8,672 nucleotides of DNA from Neptuniibacter sp. (GTDB lineage: Bacteria; Pseudomonadota; Gammaproteobacteria; Pseudomonadales; Balneatricaceae). A program made the position numbers and the translations under genes. Where the stretch lies: positions 1-8,672 of the forward strand of contig JASBRM010000042.1 in assembly GCA_030149405.1 (NCBI GenBank), in the 5' to 3' direction. The notes beneath the pieces are model-generated. The model did no database searches, had not been told where the DNA came from, and was given only the letters and a program-made list of their open reading frames with translations. Below, piece by piece: positions 4,689 to 8,619 of this stretch. How positions within the stretch are numbered: the first letter of the stretch is position 1; each line of letters begins with the position of its first letter.

Positions 4689-4716
4689 AAAAGGCTTCCT
4701 TCGGGAAGCCTTTTTT
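4689..4716 (+). terminator. Rho-independent terminator of the porin gene
   Basis: AAAAGGCTTCC (4689-4699) pairs with GGAAGCCTTTT (4704-4714) around a TTCG loop closed by C-G, the very stable UUCG tetraloop. It runs into a T-tract through 4716. It lies 26 nt after the porin stop and separates the porin from mlaA. Confidence 0.95.
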
Positions 4717-5533: not shown

Positions 5534-5545
5534 ACTCCTTCAAGT

Positions 5546-5578
5546 AAGGTTGGTTTTGGTGGCTCTGAAATCAACCTT
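5546..5578 (+). terminator. Possible mlaA transcript-end hairpin (weak)
   Basis: AAGGTTG (5546-5552) pairs exactly with CAACCTT (5572-5578). Allowing three G-U pairs, the stem extends to 14 bp (5546-5559 with 5565-5578) around a 5-nt loop. It begins 13 nt after the mlaA stop, which fits a 3'-end structure. There is no clear T-run after it, so intrinsic termination is doubtful and it may only stabilise the mRNA end. Confidence 0.4.
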
Positions 5579-5662
5579 TACGTCCTATAGATCTTATTCC
5601 TTGGTATTCTTTTCTTAAATAACCTCAGTCTTCTATTGCATGTTCAGGTCTTAAGTTTTAAC

Positions 5663-5692
5663 GTGATGCTTCATATCACTTGCCAAGTGGCA
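5663..5692. promoter_or_regulatory. Two adjacent dyads directly upstream of the phosphatase gene
   Basis: GTGAT-N7-ATCAC (5663-5679) is followed after one base by TGCCA-AG-TGGCA (5681-5692). The second dyad ends 5 nt before the ATG at 5698 and covers the only purine-rich stretch (AAGTGG) that could act as ribosome-binding site. They could be an operator or, in RNA, small hairpins that limit translation. The stems are short and chance is possible. No confident -10/-35 pair was found between 5534 and 5697. Confidence 0.25.
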
Positions 5693-5697
5693 TAGTT

Positions 5698-6867
5698 ATG
5701 AAACAAGCCTATCAAACAATATTGTTAGTGGACCATGTCGCAGAAGTTGTCGATTGTATAATCGAAACCTGTAACAGCGCTTCCTTGCCACCTGTAAAAA
5801 TTTCAACTGCTTTCAGTGCTCATTATGCGGCTGAATTACTCAAGGAAAATGACTTTTCGGTATTAGTTGTTGGTCTGGGTGAAAAACTGGATCTTGAACA
5901 AGTCTCTTTACTTGCTGAGTTACATGCTCCAAAACCAATCATTGTGATATTACCTCCTTCAGCAGAAGATCAGGTCATATCTACGCTTCGTGCCGGCGCA
6001 TCTGATGTGTTTTTTCAGGAATCTGTCCATCAGGAGCAGAGTGATTTTGTTAAATCACTCGATAAATCCCTGGCTCAGGCTGACCTGATAGAGAAAAACT
6101 TCCATTACAGAGATGAGTTAGAAAAAAGCCTGGATGAGCTGAAAGCCGATCAGGAAGCTGCATTGCAAATTCAACAGAATATGCTTCCAGATAAAGAAGT
6201 AAGCTGTGGTGGTGTTACTGCTCGTTTTCTGGTGATCCCATCCTTGTATTTGAGTGGTGATTTTGTCGATGTGGTTTCTATAGACAAAAATCGAACGCTG
6301 TTTTATCTGGCGGATGTCTCAGGGCACGGCGCATCTTCTGCATTGGTTACGGTGTTGCTCAAAAATATGACTAACAGGCTATTAAGGAATTTCCGGCGCA
6401 GCTCAAGCTTTGATATTTTAAATCCGGTGGATACACTTCACCGCATTAATTCAGAGTTGCTGGATACCGGGTTAGGAAAGCATTTGAGTATTTTTCTAGG
6501 CCTGTTCGATGCGTCTGAATCTAAATTGACCTATGCCGTTGGCGGGCATCATCCTATGCCGATTCTAAGATGCGGTAACAAAGCTGAATTCCTGAATGGA
6601 AGGGGGATGCCAGTCGGTTTATTCCCTGAGCCCATGTTTGAACAGAAAGAGATTACACTAGAGTCTGAGTTTGAAATTGCTTTATTTTCAGATGGAGTTC
6701 TTGAAATGCTTCCTCAGGAAACTATGAATGAGATGGAGCAGCGTCTAATTGAAGCGGTAATTGAGACTAAAGGAGCAGGGCCGCAAGTGATTAAAGATAG
6801 CTTACTTCCCGGTATAATTGACGAAGCACCTGACGATATAGCAATTATGACGATTAGTAGGCAGTAG
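5698..6867 (+). CDS. PP2C/SpoIIE-type serine phosphatase with N-terminal degenerate receiver domain (RssB/CrsR-like)
   Basis: This is a probable cytoplasmic regulator that dephosphorylates the STAS protein encoded next to it. ATG 5698 is preferred over the in-frame TTG at 5680; it gives 389 residues beginning at the receiver's first beta-strand (YQTILLVD). Residues 5-115 have the response-regulator fold pattern, but only one Asp (D12) of the acidic pocket remains. The phosphoacceptor position in beta-3 is Gly59 (LVVGLG), and the switch Thr/Ser and the conserved Lys also appear lost. A helical linker (about 116-162) leads through QIQQNMLP to the phosphatase domain. There the metal ligands look intact: SGD (D188), ADVSGHG (D206), FSDG (D332) and PDD (D379/D380). 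No HATPase kinase domain follows, unlike Shewanella CrsR; the length fits the Pseudomonas RssB-type protein. E. coli RssB has the opposite pattern, with a working receiver and a dead phosphatase. The next gene starts 1 nt after the stop. Confidence 0.9.
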   Translation: MKQAYQTILLVDHVAEVVDCIIETCNSASLPPVKISTAFSAHYAAELLKENDFSVLVVGLGEKLDLEQVSLLAELHAPKPIIVILPPSAEDQVISTLRAGASDVFFQESVHQEQSDFVKSLDKSLAQADLIEKNFHYRDELEKSLDELKADQEAALQIQQNMLPDKEVSCGGVTARFLVIPSLYLSGDFVDVVSIDKNRTLFYLADVSGHGASSALVTVLLKNMTNRLLRNFRRSSSFDILNPVDTLHRINSELLDTGLGKHLSIFLGLFDASESKLTYAVGGHHPMPILRCGNKAEFLNGRGMPVGLFPEPMFEQKEITLESEFEIALFSDGVLEMLPQETMNEMEQRLIEAVIETKGAGPQVIKDSLLPGIIDEAPDDIAIMTISRQ

Positions 6868-6868
6868 G

Positions 6869-7357
6869 ATGCAGGAAGGCTCGATTTTTTCAGCTCTGGT
6901 TGATGGCAGTTACGTACTCAAATTTATTGGTGACGTAAGGCTTACCCTGTGCTCGTCTCTCGACACTCATCTGGAAAACTCACTCAACAACCCCGAAATA
7001 AAAGAAATCCTGATTGATCTTACCCAGGTTGAAGGGATTGATAGTACTTCTTTGGGGCTCATTGCTAAGCTGTCCCTTAAAGCTAAAGAGCGAAACTTAC
7101 CAAAACCTGCTTTGGTTTCGACAAATCAGGATATCACCCGGATTCTTCTAACCATGGGATTTGACCATGTATTCGTGCTCATGGATCAATTACCCTCTTC
7201 ATCTCAAGAACTGAAGCAACTGCCCTTGGTTCAGGAATCGGTAGAAGAAATGCAGCAGCGCATTATTTCTGCACACAAAGTTTTAATGGATTTAAATGAA
7301 ACTAACCGAGAAGCGTTTAAAGATTTAGTTTCTACTCTGGAATCCATCGAAAAATAA
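6869..7357 (+). CDS. STAS-domain anti-sigma-factor antagonist (RssC/CrsA-like)
   Basis: This is a cytoplasmic partner-switch protein: in its unphosphorylated form such a protein binds an anti-sigma factor or kinase and frees the sigma factor. The product has 162 residues. The STAS fold covers about 5-108, with IKEILIDLTQVEGIDSTSLG (44-63) as the core. D58-S59-T60 align with the Asp-Ser-Ser/Thr site phosphorylated in SpoIIAA and RsbV, so S59 or T60 is the likely phosphosite. A predicted helical tail (about 110-162, charged and Gln-rich) extends beyond the minimal STAS domain. The ATG lies 1 nt after the phosphatase stop, so translation is probably coupled; the phosphatase is the natural partner. 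The cognate kinase/anti-sigma protein is not in the window. GGA motifs cover the start region (6867-6869 and 6874-6876), a possible CsrA contact. The stop codon lies inside the dyad at 7352-7372. Confidence 0.92.
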   Translation: MQEGSIFSALVDGSYVLKFIGDVRLTLCSSLDTHLENSLNNPEIKEILIDLTQVEGIDSTSLGLIAKLSLKAKERNLPKPALVSTNQDITRILLTMGFDHVFVLMDQLPSSSQELKQLPLVQESVEEMQQRIISAHKVLMDLNETNREAFKDLVSTLESIEK

Positions 7358-7372
7358 GAATTTTTCTTATTT
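7352..7372. promoter_or_regulatory. Candidate GacA/UvrY/LetA-type operator upstream of the small RNA
   Basis: AAATAAGAA (7352-7360) and TTCTTATTT (7364-7372) form a perfect 9-bp inverted repeat around TTT. The half-sites TAAGAA/TTCTTA resemble the Legionella LetA box as I recall it (TNAGAA-AT-TTCTNA), with one extra central base. They also resemble the TGTAAG-N6-CTTACA activator site of GacA/UvrY-controlled rsm/csr RNAs. The repeat overlaps the stop codon of the STAS gene and is centred about 42 bp before the proposed RNA start, nearer than the roughly -65 known for Pseudomonas rsm promoters. A/T-rich dyads arise by chance, so this is tentative. Confidence 0.45.
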
Positions 7373-7391
7373 AACTTTATCTGGTAATTCA

Positions 7392-7397
7392 TAGAAT
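7392..7397 (+). promoter_or_regulatory. Candidate -10 element of the small RNA
   Basis: TAGAAT matches TATAAT at five of six positions and would place the RNA start near 7404. At 15-17 nt upstream there is only a poor -35 (TTAACT at 7371-7376 is the nearest). That would be normal for a promoter relying on a response-regulator activator bound next to it. Confidence 0.35.
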
Positions 7398-7403
7398 ATT
7401 CAA

Positions 7404-7541
7404 TTGGAAGGGGGTTGCATAGGATTTGCACATGTTCACAAGGAAGAGCCGCCCCATCTCATCGTTTAAGGACTGAACGATGACCGATATGGATATCGGG
7501 GGAATAGCCCGTAGGCTGGAAGATACCTACGGGCTTTTTTT
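7404..7541 (+). ncRNA. CsrB/RsmZ-type CsrA-sequestering small RNA (putative)
   Basis: RNAs of this class carry many GGA motifs in exposed loops and titrate the translational repressor CsrA/RsmA. Here seven GGA motifs occur in about 138 nt, starting at 7406, 7422, 7442, 7470, 7491, 7501 and 7518. Hairpin 1 is weak: TGCA 7416-7419 with 7427-7430, loop TAGGATT. Hairpin 2 is 8 bp (7459-7466 with 7476-7483) with loop TAAGGACTG. Hairpin 3 follows directly: CCGAT 7484-7488 with ATCGG 7495-7499, hexaloop ATGGAT, matching the preferred ANGGAN loop. Hairpin 4 is the terminator (7506-7535) and also shows GGA in its loop. GGGG (7411-7414) can pair with CCCC (7452-7455) to close the 5' part. The size and the consecutive GGA-loop hairpins fit RsmZ. 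The 5' end is a guess from the TAGAAT box; the 3' end is firm. No protein frame here is credible. Confidence 0.78.
7506..7541 (+). terminator. Rho-independent terminator of the small RNA and probably of the phosphatase/STAS operon
   Basis: AGCCCGTAGG (7506-7515) pairs perfectly with CCTACGGGCT (7526-7535) around a 10-nt loop containing GGA, then T7535-T7541. It is the only convincing terminator after the STAS gene. On the minus strand the same stem follows the amrS stop at 7540 but lacks a U-run, so it should act mainly on plus-strand transcripts. Confidence 0.93.
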
Positions 7542-8619
7542 ATCCTATTTCTATTGGCAACCTGCGTTGTCCCCAAGTTCCAGGAACAGGGCTGAAATGA
7601 CCGTGAACAGCTGCATGGCACTTGTTGCAGCGCCCTTCAGGGTTAATGTTCCATTTTCCTAGTTCATACCAGCAGCGTTCAATAAGAAGGTGATGACAGT
7701 TGTGGCAGTAGGTGCTGTTGCCCTCAGTGTCATAAACATTTCCAGTATATGGGTAATAAAGGCCGTTTTTAACCGCAATATCTCTGGCTCTCGTTAGGGT
7801 ATCTGCTGGTGTTCTCGGTTTATCCAGCATCTTCCAATCAGGATGAAACGCAGTAAAGTGAATAGGTACTTCCGGGCCGAGGTTATCCGCTAACCATCTG
7901 CACATAGCTTCCAGTTCTTGGTTGTTGTCGTTTTCTCCTGGTATAAGTAGCGTAGTGAGTTCAAACCAGATATGAGTTTCATGTTTTAGATAAAGCAGGG
8001 TGTCTAAGACCGGGGCCAGATCGCCTCCACAAATCTTTTTATAGAAGTTTTGACTAAAGGCTTTCAGATCGACATTGGCTGCATCTATCTTTGAGAAAAA
8101 CTGCTCCCTAGGCTGTTCACATATATAGCCTGCAGTTACGGCTACGGTTTTTAATTTGTGTAAATGGCAGGCATCTGCAATATCCAGGGCATATTCCATA
8201 AAAATAACTGGATCATTGTAGGTAAAAGCGACACCCAAACAGGCATTCTGAAGAGCCGCTTCGGTAATACTCTCTGGCAGGGCTAATTGGGTTAATCGGT
8301 CCATCTCGCGGGATTTGCTCATATCCCAGTTCTGGCAAAATTTGCAGGTCAGATTGCAACCTGCCGTACCAAACGAGAGTATAGGTTGACCGGGATAGAA
8401 ATGATTAAGAGGCTTCTTTTCGATAGGGTCTATACAAAATCCGCTTGATCTACCCCAGGTATAGAGCTTTATTTCACCCTGCTCACAACCTCTGACAAAA
8501 CACAGACCGCGTTGCCCCTCTTTCAACTTGCAATAACGGGGGCAGAGGTCACATTGAACTCTATCGTCTTCTAATTTATGCCAAAACTTGGTTGGGTGAG
8601 GCGAATTAATAATAGACAT
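7540..8619 (-). CDS. amrS: AmmeMemoRadiSam system radical SAM enzyme (AmrS)
   Basis: This is a cytoplasmic radical S-adenosylmethionine enzyme of the PflA-like group, normally found with AMMECR1-domain and MEMO1-domain proteins; the reaction and substrate are unknown. The product has 359 residues. The 4Fe-4S/SAM motif is C88-x3-C92-x2-C95 (CNLTCKFCQNW). An N-terminal cysteine cluster (C23, C26, C30, C40) and a C-terminal pair of CxxC motifs (C305/C308, C331/C334) are as expected for AmrS and may bind metal. Other conserved stretches are SFGTAGCNL, AFTYNDPVIFMEYA and IHFTAFHPDWKM. The ATG at 8619 has AGGTG (plus-strand 8625-8629) 5 nt before it. The frame stays open upstream to the window edge, so a longer N-terminus cannot be excluded, but MSIINSPHPTKFWHKL is a normal start. 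Neither partner gene is visible downstream; the upstream neighbour is outside the window. Its 3' end converges on the small RNA. Confidence 0.93.
   Translation of the reverse strand: MSIINSPHPTKFWHKLEDDRVQCDLCPRYCKLKEGQRGLCFVRGCEQGEIKLYTWGRSSGFCIDPIEKKPLNHFYPGQPILSFGTAGCNLTCKFCQNWDMSKSREMDRLTQLALPESITEAALQNACLGVAFTYNDPVIFMEYALDIADACHLHKLKTVAVTAGYICEQPREQFFSKIDAANVDLKAFSQNFYKKICGGDLAPVLDTLLYLKHETHIWFELTTLLIPGENDNNQELEAMCRWLADNLGPEVPIHFTAFHPDWKMLDKPRTPADTLTRARDIAVKNGLYYPYTGNVYDTEGNSTYCHNCHHLLIERCWYELGKWNINPEGRCNKCHAAVHGHFSPVPGTWGQRRLPIEIG

Follow-up and report, generated by a model that had tools for sequence, protein, structure and literature searches.

A conserved predicted RNA with GGA in its hairpin loops, a likely CsrA sponge, beside an rssBC-like operon of Neptuniibacter

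An 8,672-nucleotide stretch of Neptuniibacter sp. DNA (assembly GCA_030149405.1, contig JASBRM010000042.1; hereafter the window) contains, at positions 7404-7541, a conserved sequence that is predicted to form an RNA with GGA in each hairpin loop and is very likely a CsrA sponge of the Csr/Rsm type. Comparison across relatives provides strong evidence for the RNA. It constitutes a new RNA family, of the presumed Csr/Rsm sponge type, and stays under the gathering threshold of every Rfam family searched. It is ordinary in its likely function and unusual in its likely control. The source genome is designated G000 below, and the bacterial family to which it belongs f1, which we take to be Nitrincolaceae in GTDB.

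Predicted structure of the RNA

The minimum free energy (MFE) of the RNA is -49.8 kcal/mol (z -3.9), and none of 200 shuffled sequences was equally stable. The window sequence allows 8, 5 and 10 base pairs for the P4, P5 and terminator hairpins respectively (Table 1), where an earlier note on this DNA had placed them, and the -10-like box and the dyad that this note reported upstream are likewise present. The MFE structure narrows two of the loops a little, to AGGAC in P4 and UGGA in P5. The 5' part, absent from the earlier note, is predicted to consist of stem P1 around the GGA-loop hairpins P2 and P3. Features of a small RNA gene, namely promoter-like elements and an intrinsic terminator, are visible in the sequence; a consensus terminator scan with a loop limit of 8 omitted this terminator.

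Table 1. Coordinates of the RNA, its parts and its neighbours in the window
Feature	Position	Strand	Description
RssB-like gene with SpoIIE-type phosphatase domain	5680-6867	+	Upstream neighbour; SpoIIE (PF07228) 115.7 bits
RssC-like STAS gene	6869-7357	+	STAS (PF01740) 33.4 bits
Dyad TAAGAATTTTTCTTA (TARGA-N5-TCYTA)	7355-7369, centre 7362	.	Predicted activator site; 15 nt
-10-like element TAGAAT	7392-7397	+	Starts 30 nt after dyad centre
RNA	7404-7541	+	Predicted start about 7404, from the -10; ends with the T run
P1 stem	7411-7415 with 7451-7455 (span 7411-7455)	+	Predicted fold; closes a three-way junction with P2 and P3
P2 hairpin	7416-7430	+	Predicted fold; UGCA/UGCA, loop UAGGAUU
P3 weak hairpin	7434-7449	+	Predicted fold; GUUC/GAGC, loop ACAAGGAA
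P4 hairpin	7459-7466 with 7476-7483	+	8 bp; loop UAAGGACUG
P5 hairpin	7484-7488 with 7495-7499	+	5 bp; hexaloop AUGGAU
Linker	7500-7505	+	GGA at 7501; paired with U run in MFE structure
Intrinsic terminator	7506-7515 with 7526-7535, T to 7541 (span 7506-7541)	+	10 bp; loop CUGGAAGAUA, U run
amrS, convergent radical SAM gene	7540-8619	-	TIGR04337 625.5 bits, cut-off 220

Two other readings of the same letters were rejected. An open reading frame at 7480-7662 (60 aa) matches nothing in Pfam and runs across the covarying stems, and a match to the Rfam anti-hemB family (26.8 bits, gathering threshold 49.5) covers two hairpins and the terminator and was dismissed as chance. Elsewhere in the window, a terminator-like hairpin lies at 4689-4714, between the porin and MlaA genes, and the Rfam leader families that match there below threshold, on either strand, do so through this hairpin.

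GGA motifs

Seven GGA motifs start on the + strand at 7406, 7422, 7442, 7470, 7491, 7501 and 7518, in agreement with the count and positions of the earlier note for these 138 or so nucleotides, and the - strand has none within the gap 7358-7539. The contention that they are far denser than chance was overstated, however: a first-order Markov model gives a probability of 0.0062 for at least seven GGA per 138 nt, and the same number is reached within a coding region by 138-nt windows that start at 2331-2373 or at 2382-2407. Density by itself is therefore weak evidence, and taken alone would suit the view that the cluster arose by chance and has no function. That view is scarcely credible given the covariation, the placement of the motifs in loops and the linkage to the dyad described below. 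In the MFE structure the GGAs at 7422, 7442, 7470 and 7491 are unpaired and that at 7518 nearly so, whereas the remaining two of the seven (7406, and 7501 with the U run) are paired. Judged by shape against CsrA sites in general, P4 and P5 would be the best sites.

Covariation and loop conservation

A covariance model, R1, was built from eight sequences (the window and seven relatives) with base pairs drawn by eye, and was used throughout. Twenty-five copies from 19 sources, hand-picked and without those judged false, were aligned (alignment A4). Of all cells in paired columns, 88.9% can pair, compared with 30-48% when the partners are slid; changes on both sides occur in 31 of 32 pairs, and none of 500 shuffles reaches any of the five measures. 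P1 (84.7% of cells paired), P4 (97.4%) and P5 (91.8%) show both-side changes in every pair (5/5, 8/8 and 5/5). P2 has 72.5% of its cells paired, and the terminator 98.5% in the lower stem and 72.2% in the upper. The pairing of P3 lies outside the covariance model and these figures. Alignments A3 and A4 favour the structure, because they were fitted to a model with pairs drawn by eye. RNAalifold, applied to an unfitted, sequence-only MAFFT alignment of 14 sequences, predicted 23 pairs, 16 of them with both-side changes, that correspond to P2, P4 and the terminator with an extension of the linker to the U run; P1 and P5 were not predicted from that alignment.

The feature that defines the class, several conserved GGAs in hairpin loops, is found here. 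In A4, with segments taken as the loops plus a few adjoining columns, all 25 rows carry GGA in the P3, P4 and P5 segments and 24 carry it in the P2 segment; the motif occurs in 22 rows for the terminator loop and in 14 for the linker. Only 14 of 172 GGAs fall mostly in columns paired by the model. The case made in the earlier note called for loop GGAs and stem covariation to be kept in relatives, and both are.

A small RNA of the base-pairing (Hfq-type) kind, with purine-rich loops by the way, would account equally for the length, promoter-like elements and terminator, which fit any small RNA. The loop letters that are kept are GGA, though, and another long conserved unpaired seed was not seen in A4 by eye, so that such an RNA is a very improbable reading beside a CsrA sponge.

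Distribution and arrays

Plain DNA similarity found matches in only two of 38 genomes (the source genome and G007). By reading, a GGA-rich, terminator-ended unit was recognised after the STAS gene at 14 of 30 loci, that of the window included, and R1 detected 16 copies in 37 sources, its own eight included. The match in the window (7398-7541) scores 131.1 bits with a model to which the window sequence itself contributed, and is the only copy in the source genome. In a set of 57 whole genomes, R1 matched 18, all within the 36 of f1, and none of the 21 from other families. G048 was counted among the 18 through a false match (L090), and its real copies are those at L024. G018 (L026) is a nineteenth f1 genome with a copy, and G266 (L156) a further one from outside the 36-genome set. 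The total gathered is 25 copies, the eight of the model included, from one bacterial family.

No R1 copy was found in 17 of the 36 f1 genomes, one of which is G008 (L005/L064, Neptuniibacter Gpa_13; genome 88% complete), the closest relative by STAS protein (86%): the RNA is absent after its STAS gene, and R1 found none elsewhere in that genome. Among named organisms, the nearest by STAS protein belong to Neptuniibacter (L064, L065; Oceanospirillaceae at NCBI). Weak matches at L090, L091, L094 and L095 were dismissed by eye, as they are without loop GGAs and without a dyad. An order-wide search, limited to eight candidates per genome, gave matches in at least nine of 390 genomes. Those in G091, G267, G282, G309 and G334, from other families (28.8-32.3 bits), are strong terminators with one to four GGA and were rejected; five of the six matches in these genomes were inspected, and L162 overlaps L160 on the opposite strand. 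Absences in this search are weak evidence, since eight candidates per genome were scored and the known positives G016 and G048 were missed.

The RNA occurs at unrelated loci in several genera. Four copies in a row (G047) and two (G021) follow an Lrp/AsnC-type gene, a tandem pair lies beside an OmpA-type gene in G023, and the copy in G016 follows a chemotaxis-receptor gene. Arrays of two to four copies were seen at L112 (G047:C137), L113 (G023:C37), L114 (G021:C155) and L024 (G048), and most array copies have a dyad of their own.

These loci bear on another account, in which the sequence does no more than provide the rssBC-like operon with a structured 3' UTR and a terminator, protecting or ending the mRNA, the GGAs being incidental. 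The RNA does lie on the same strand as the RssC-like gene, with no G+C-rich terminator seen between the two. Yet copies that mostly have the dyad stand in tandem or singly beside the Lrp/AsnC-type, OmpA-type and chemotaxis-receptor genes, and the loop GGAs persist despite changes in the stems. A mere 3' UTR is accordingly an improbable explanation, and the sponge reading is preferred.

Relation to known Csr/Rsm RNAs

None of the Rfam families that the earlier note had suggested searching (CsrB, CsrC, PrrB/RsmZ, RsmY and RsmX) reaches its gathering threshold. CsrB, CsrC, PrrB_RsmZ and RsmX gave no match to the window at E ≤ 10, nor to the 14 loci at E ≤ 2, and the window listing left out three overlapping matches that score below a listed clan member. 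RsmY of Pseudomonas (RF00195) reached 17.4 bits against a gathering threshold of 57 and was not matched at E ≤ 2 in the loci of 13 relatives. The RsmY model is nevertheless aligned end to end with the window RNA by cmscan, and the two are similar in length, in a 5' hairpin with an AGGA loop, in further GGAs and in the terminator; the window RNA adds the enclosing stem and hairpins P4 and P5. The core of the earlier proposal, an unannotated CsrB/RsmZ-like RNA, holds up, with conserved GGA loops, covarying stems and a csrA start in the genome (see below).

A parallel in setting is that of CsrB and CsrC in Marinomonas mediterranea, a marine gammaproteobacterium with ANGGA-containing small RNAs, activator boxes and csrA, in which, according to excerpts of PMC8523701, a GacA homologue (PpoR) is encoded beside uvrC and GacA boxes are present at csrB and csrC. 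The box there is TGTAAGN6CTTACA, whereas the window has the dyad TARGA-N5-TCYTA and gacA was not found. Similarly, in Escherichia coli an upstream inverted repeat drives CsrA-sequestering RNAs (csrB and csrC) under UvrY, which binds an 18-nt repeat centred at -183/-182 of csrB (PMC4682653, in excerpt); the dyad in the window differs in being 15 nt long and at about -42 from the predicted start. A search of open-access full text returned no papers on CsrA in Neptuniibacter or Nitrincolaceae, or on CsrB in Marinobacterium.

The promoter dyad

The dyad is found exactly upstream of 20 of the 25 copies and with at most one mismatch upstream of 23, compared with 0 of 448 (exact) and 4 of 448 (at most one mismatch) control blocks of the same loci. 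The two copies without it are members of tandem arrays (G047, G021). The distance from the dyad centre to the -10 is 30 nt in 13 of the 23 copies with a dyad and 28-32 nt in 18; in the other five the spacing, to a -10 picked by score, scatters from 8 to 23 nt. The dyad would be centred at about -42 if transcription starts near 7404. The earlier note had called it a GacA-type dyad. Its presence and its association with the RNA are confirmed, yet it differs from the canonical GacA box: sites with up to three mismatches to TGTAAGN6CTTACA are lacking in the gap and number 4 in the window (4.17 expected), the nearest being at 7064, inside the STAS gene.

The pattern TARGAA/TTCYTA with 2 to 4 nt between its halves occurs at five places in the source genome (each read on both strands), equal to the control count of five. 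Two of the four other dyads (L110, G000:C155:859-873; L109, G000:C248:4575-4589) precede small cysteine-containing ORFs (listed lengths 95 and 76 aa), and a -10-like TAATTT stands at roughly 30-31 nt from the centre of each dyad, as counted by eye. These sites possibly belong to the same regulon as the RNA dyad. Another, on C171, is at a contig end, with little of its surroundings visible.

CsrA and GacA in the family

A gene for CsrA, which the earlier note regarded as essential to its proposal, is at least partly in evidence: a csrA start follows an aspartate-kinase-type gene in the source genome and is cut by the contig end after 18 residues, its match to the CsrA N-terminus (E 3.3e-4, 24 bits) lying below the Pfam cut-off of 27.

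A GacA orthologue (NF007018, UvrY/SirA/GacA, E ≤ 1e-62) was found in none of the 36 f1 genomes but in 14 of 21 genomes from other families in the order (272-334 bits). Its absence is not unique to f1, because the remaining seven of those 21 also gave none. In the source genome the five best regulators by this model score from 188.9 down to 109.3 bits (cut-off 280), and none of them is favoured as the regulator of the dyad. uvrC was searched for in eight genomes, six of f1 and two outsiders. It was found in five of the six (L117-L120, L122); none of these has gacA in the 1.5 kb before uvrC, and a pgsA-like gene follows it in all five by eye (CDP-OH_P_transf confirmed for L117). Both outsiders keep gacA beside uvrC. 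No uvrC was found in the fragmented source assembly, so the absence of gacA there proves little on its own.

BarA-like kinases (E ≤ 1e-120) were found in 49 of the 57 genomes, 31 of them among the 36 of f1, with a model that also catches other hybrid kinases; none exceeds the cut-off of 890 bits. That of the source genome (G000:C130, L151; 555 bits) contains sCache_4, HAMP, HisKA, HATPase and receiver domains. It stands in a row with TonB-receptor-type and ABC-substrate-binding-type genes, and similar-looking rows were seen by eye at L152-L155.

A diverged GacA orthologue, beyond the reach of the NCBIfam model, might read the dyad in an ordinary Gac/Csr circuit, which would compete with a rewired control and leave the sponge untouched. 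In its favour, the window half-sites TAAG/CTTA resemble the ends of TGTAAGN6CTTACA, as given in excerpts of PMC8523701, and the BarA-like kinase with its sCache_4 domain is at hand. The split between f1 and the other families and the lack of gacA beside uvrC in all five f1 genomes argue against it, as does the distance of the candidates: 13 GacAs of other families share 51-76% identity with one another, while the five regulators of the source genome share 27-41% with them. Moreover, TAGG replaces TAAG in most copies, and the half-sites stand 7 nt apart instead of the 6 of the GacA box. A diverged GacA is therefore considered rather unlikely. Given that the orthologue is found in 0 of 36 f1 genomes, the dyad has probably passed to a different response regulator. 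In f1 the Csr output seems to have been kept and the activator lost or replaced, and control of the RNA, with no recognisable GacA among the f1 genomes searched, has probably been rewired.

The rssBC-like operon

The dyad opens with the stop codon TAA of the RssC-like gene (7355-7357), and the amrS stop overlaps the end of the U run of the RNA. Between the RssC-like gene and the RNA, the sole hairpin seen is A+U-rich. As no G+C-rich terminator was seen there, the terminator of the RNA probably also ends the rssBC-like transcript.

The two upstream genes have a layout identical to that of RssB and RssC of Azotobacter and Pseudomonas, described in excerpts of PMC12923157 that make no mention of an Rsm RNA alongside. 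Their best NCBIfam matches are RssB_Pseudo and RssC_Pseudo, although at scores below the curated cut-offs (279.3 bits against 700, and 178.6 against 250). According to the same excerpts, degradation of RpoS in Pseudomonadaceae has been proposed to require RssB and RssC, and RpoS stability in Azotobacter is under Gac-Rsm control through ClpXP. The RpoS link that the earlier note assigned to the neighbouring operon is reasonable, because the operon is RssB/RssC-like, by analogy with Pseudomonadaceae (PMC12923157). The integration of two global switches that the note suggested from this position may apply here; in several genera, as described above, the RNA lies elsewhere. Control of rssC by CsrA through a GGA at the start codon was considered and rejected, since this GGA comes and goes among 18 loci; on the + strand, GGA is missing from the rssB leader (5534-5679).

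Implications

In the proposed mechanism, the RNA would be activated via the dyad by some response regulator distinct from canonical GacA, with transcription starting from the TAGAAT box near 7404. Several CsrA dimers are predicted to grip the loop GGAs, so that CsrA would be titrated and its target mRNAs freed. The rssBC-like transcript would moreover have the RNA as its 3' end, and through this shared transcript CsrA titration may be tied to RpoS turnover. A broader scenario is offered tentatively, at somewhat less than an even chance: the whole family may have lost GacA and kept the CsrA-sponge arm, with a new RNA family under another response regulator that acts through a new operator at about -42, and in Neptuniibacter transcription of the rssBC-like genes may also make the sponge.

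A further gain is an RNA family below the gathering threshold of every Rfam family searched; it includes tandem copies and one linked to rssBC, through which CsrA control and RpoS turnover could be connected. Gac/Rsm is usually described as a single conserved cascade in Gammaproteobacteria. If f1 runs the Csr arm without GacA, the family would be a natural experiment that shows a global RNA switch passing to another master, and the covariance model and operator motif supplied here are a means to find the new activator.
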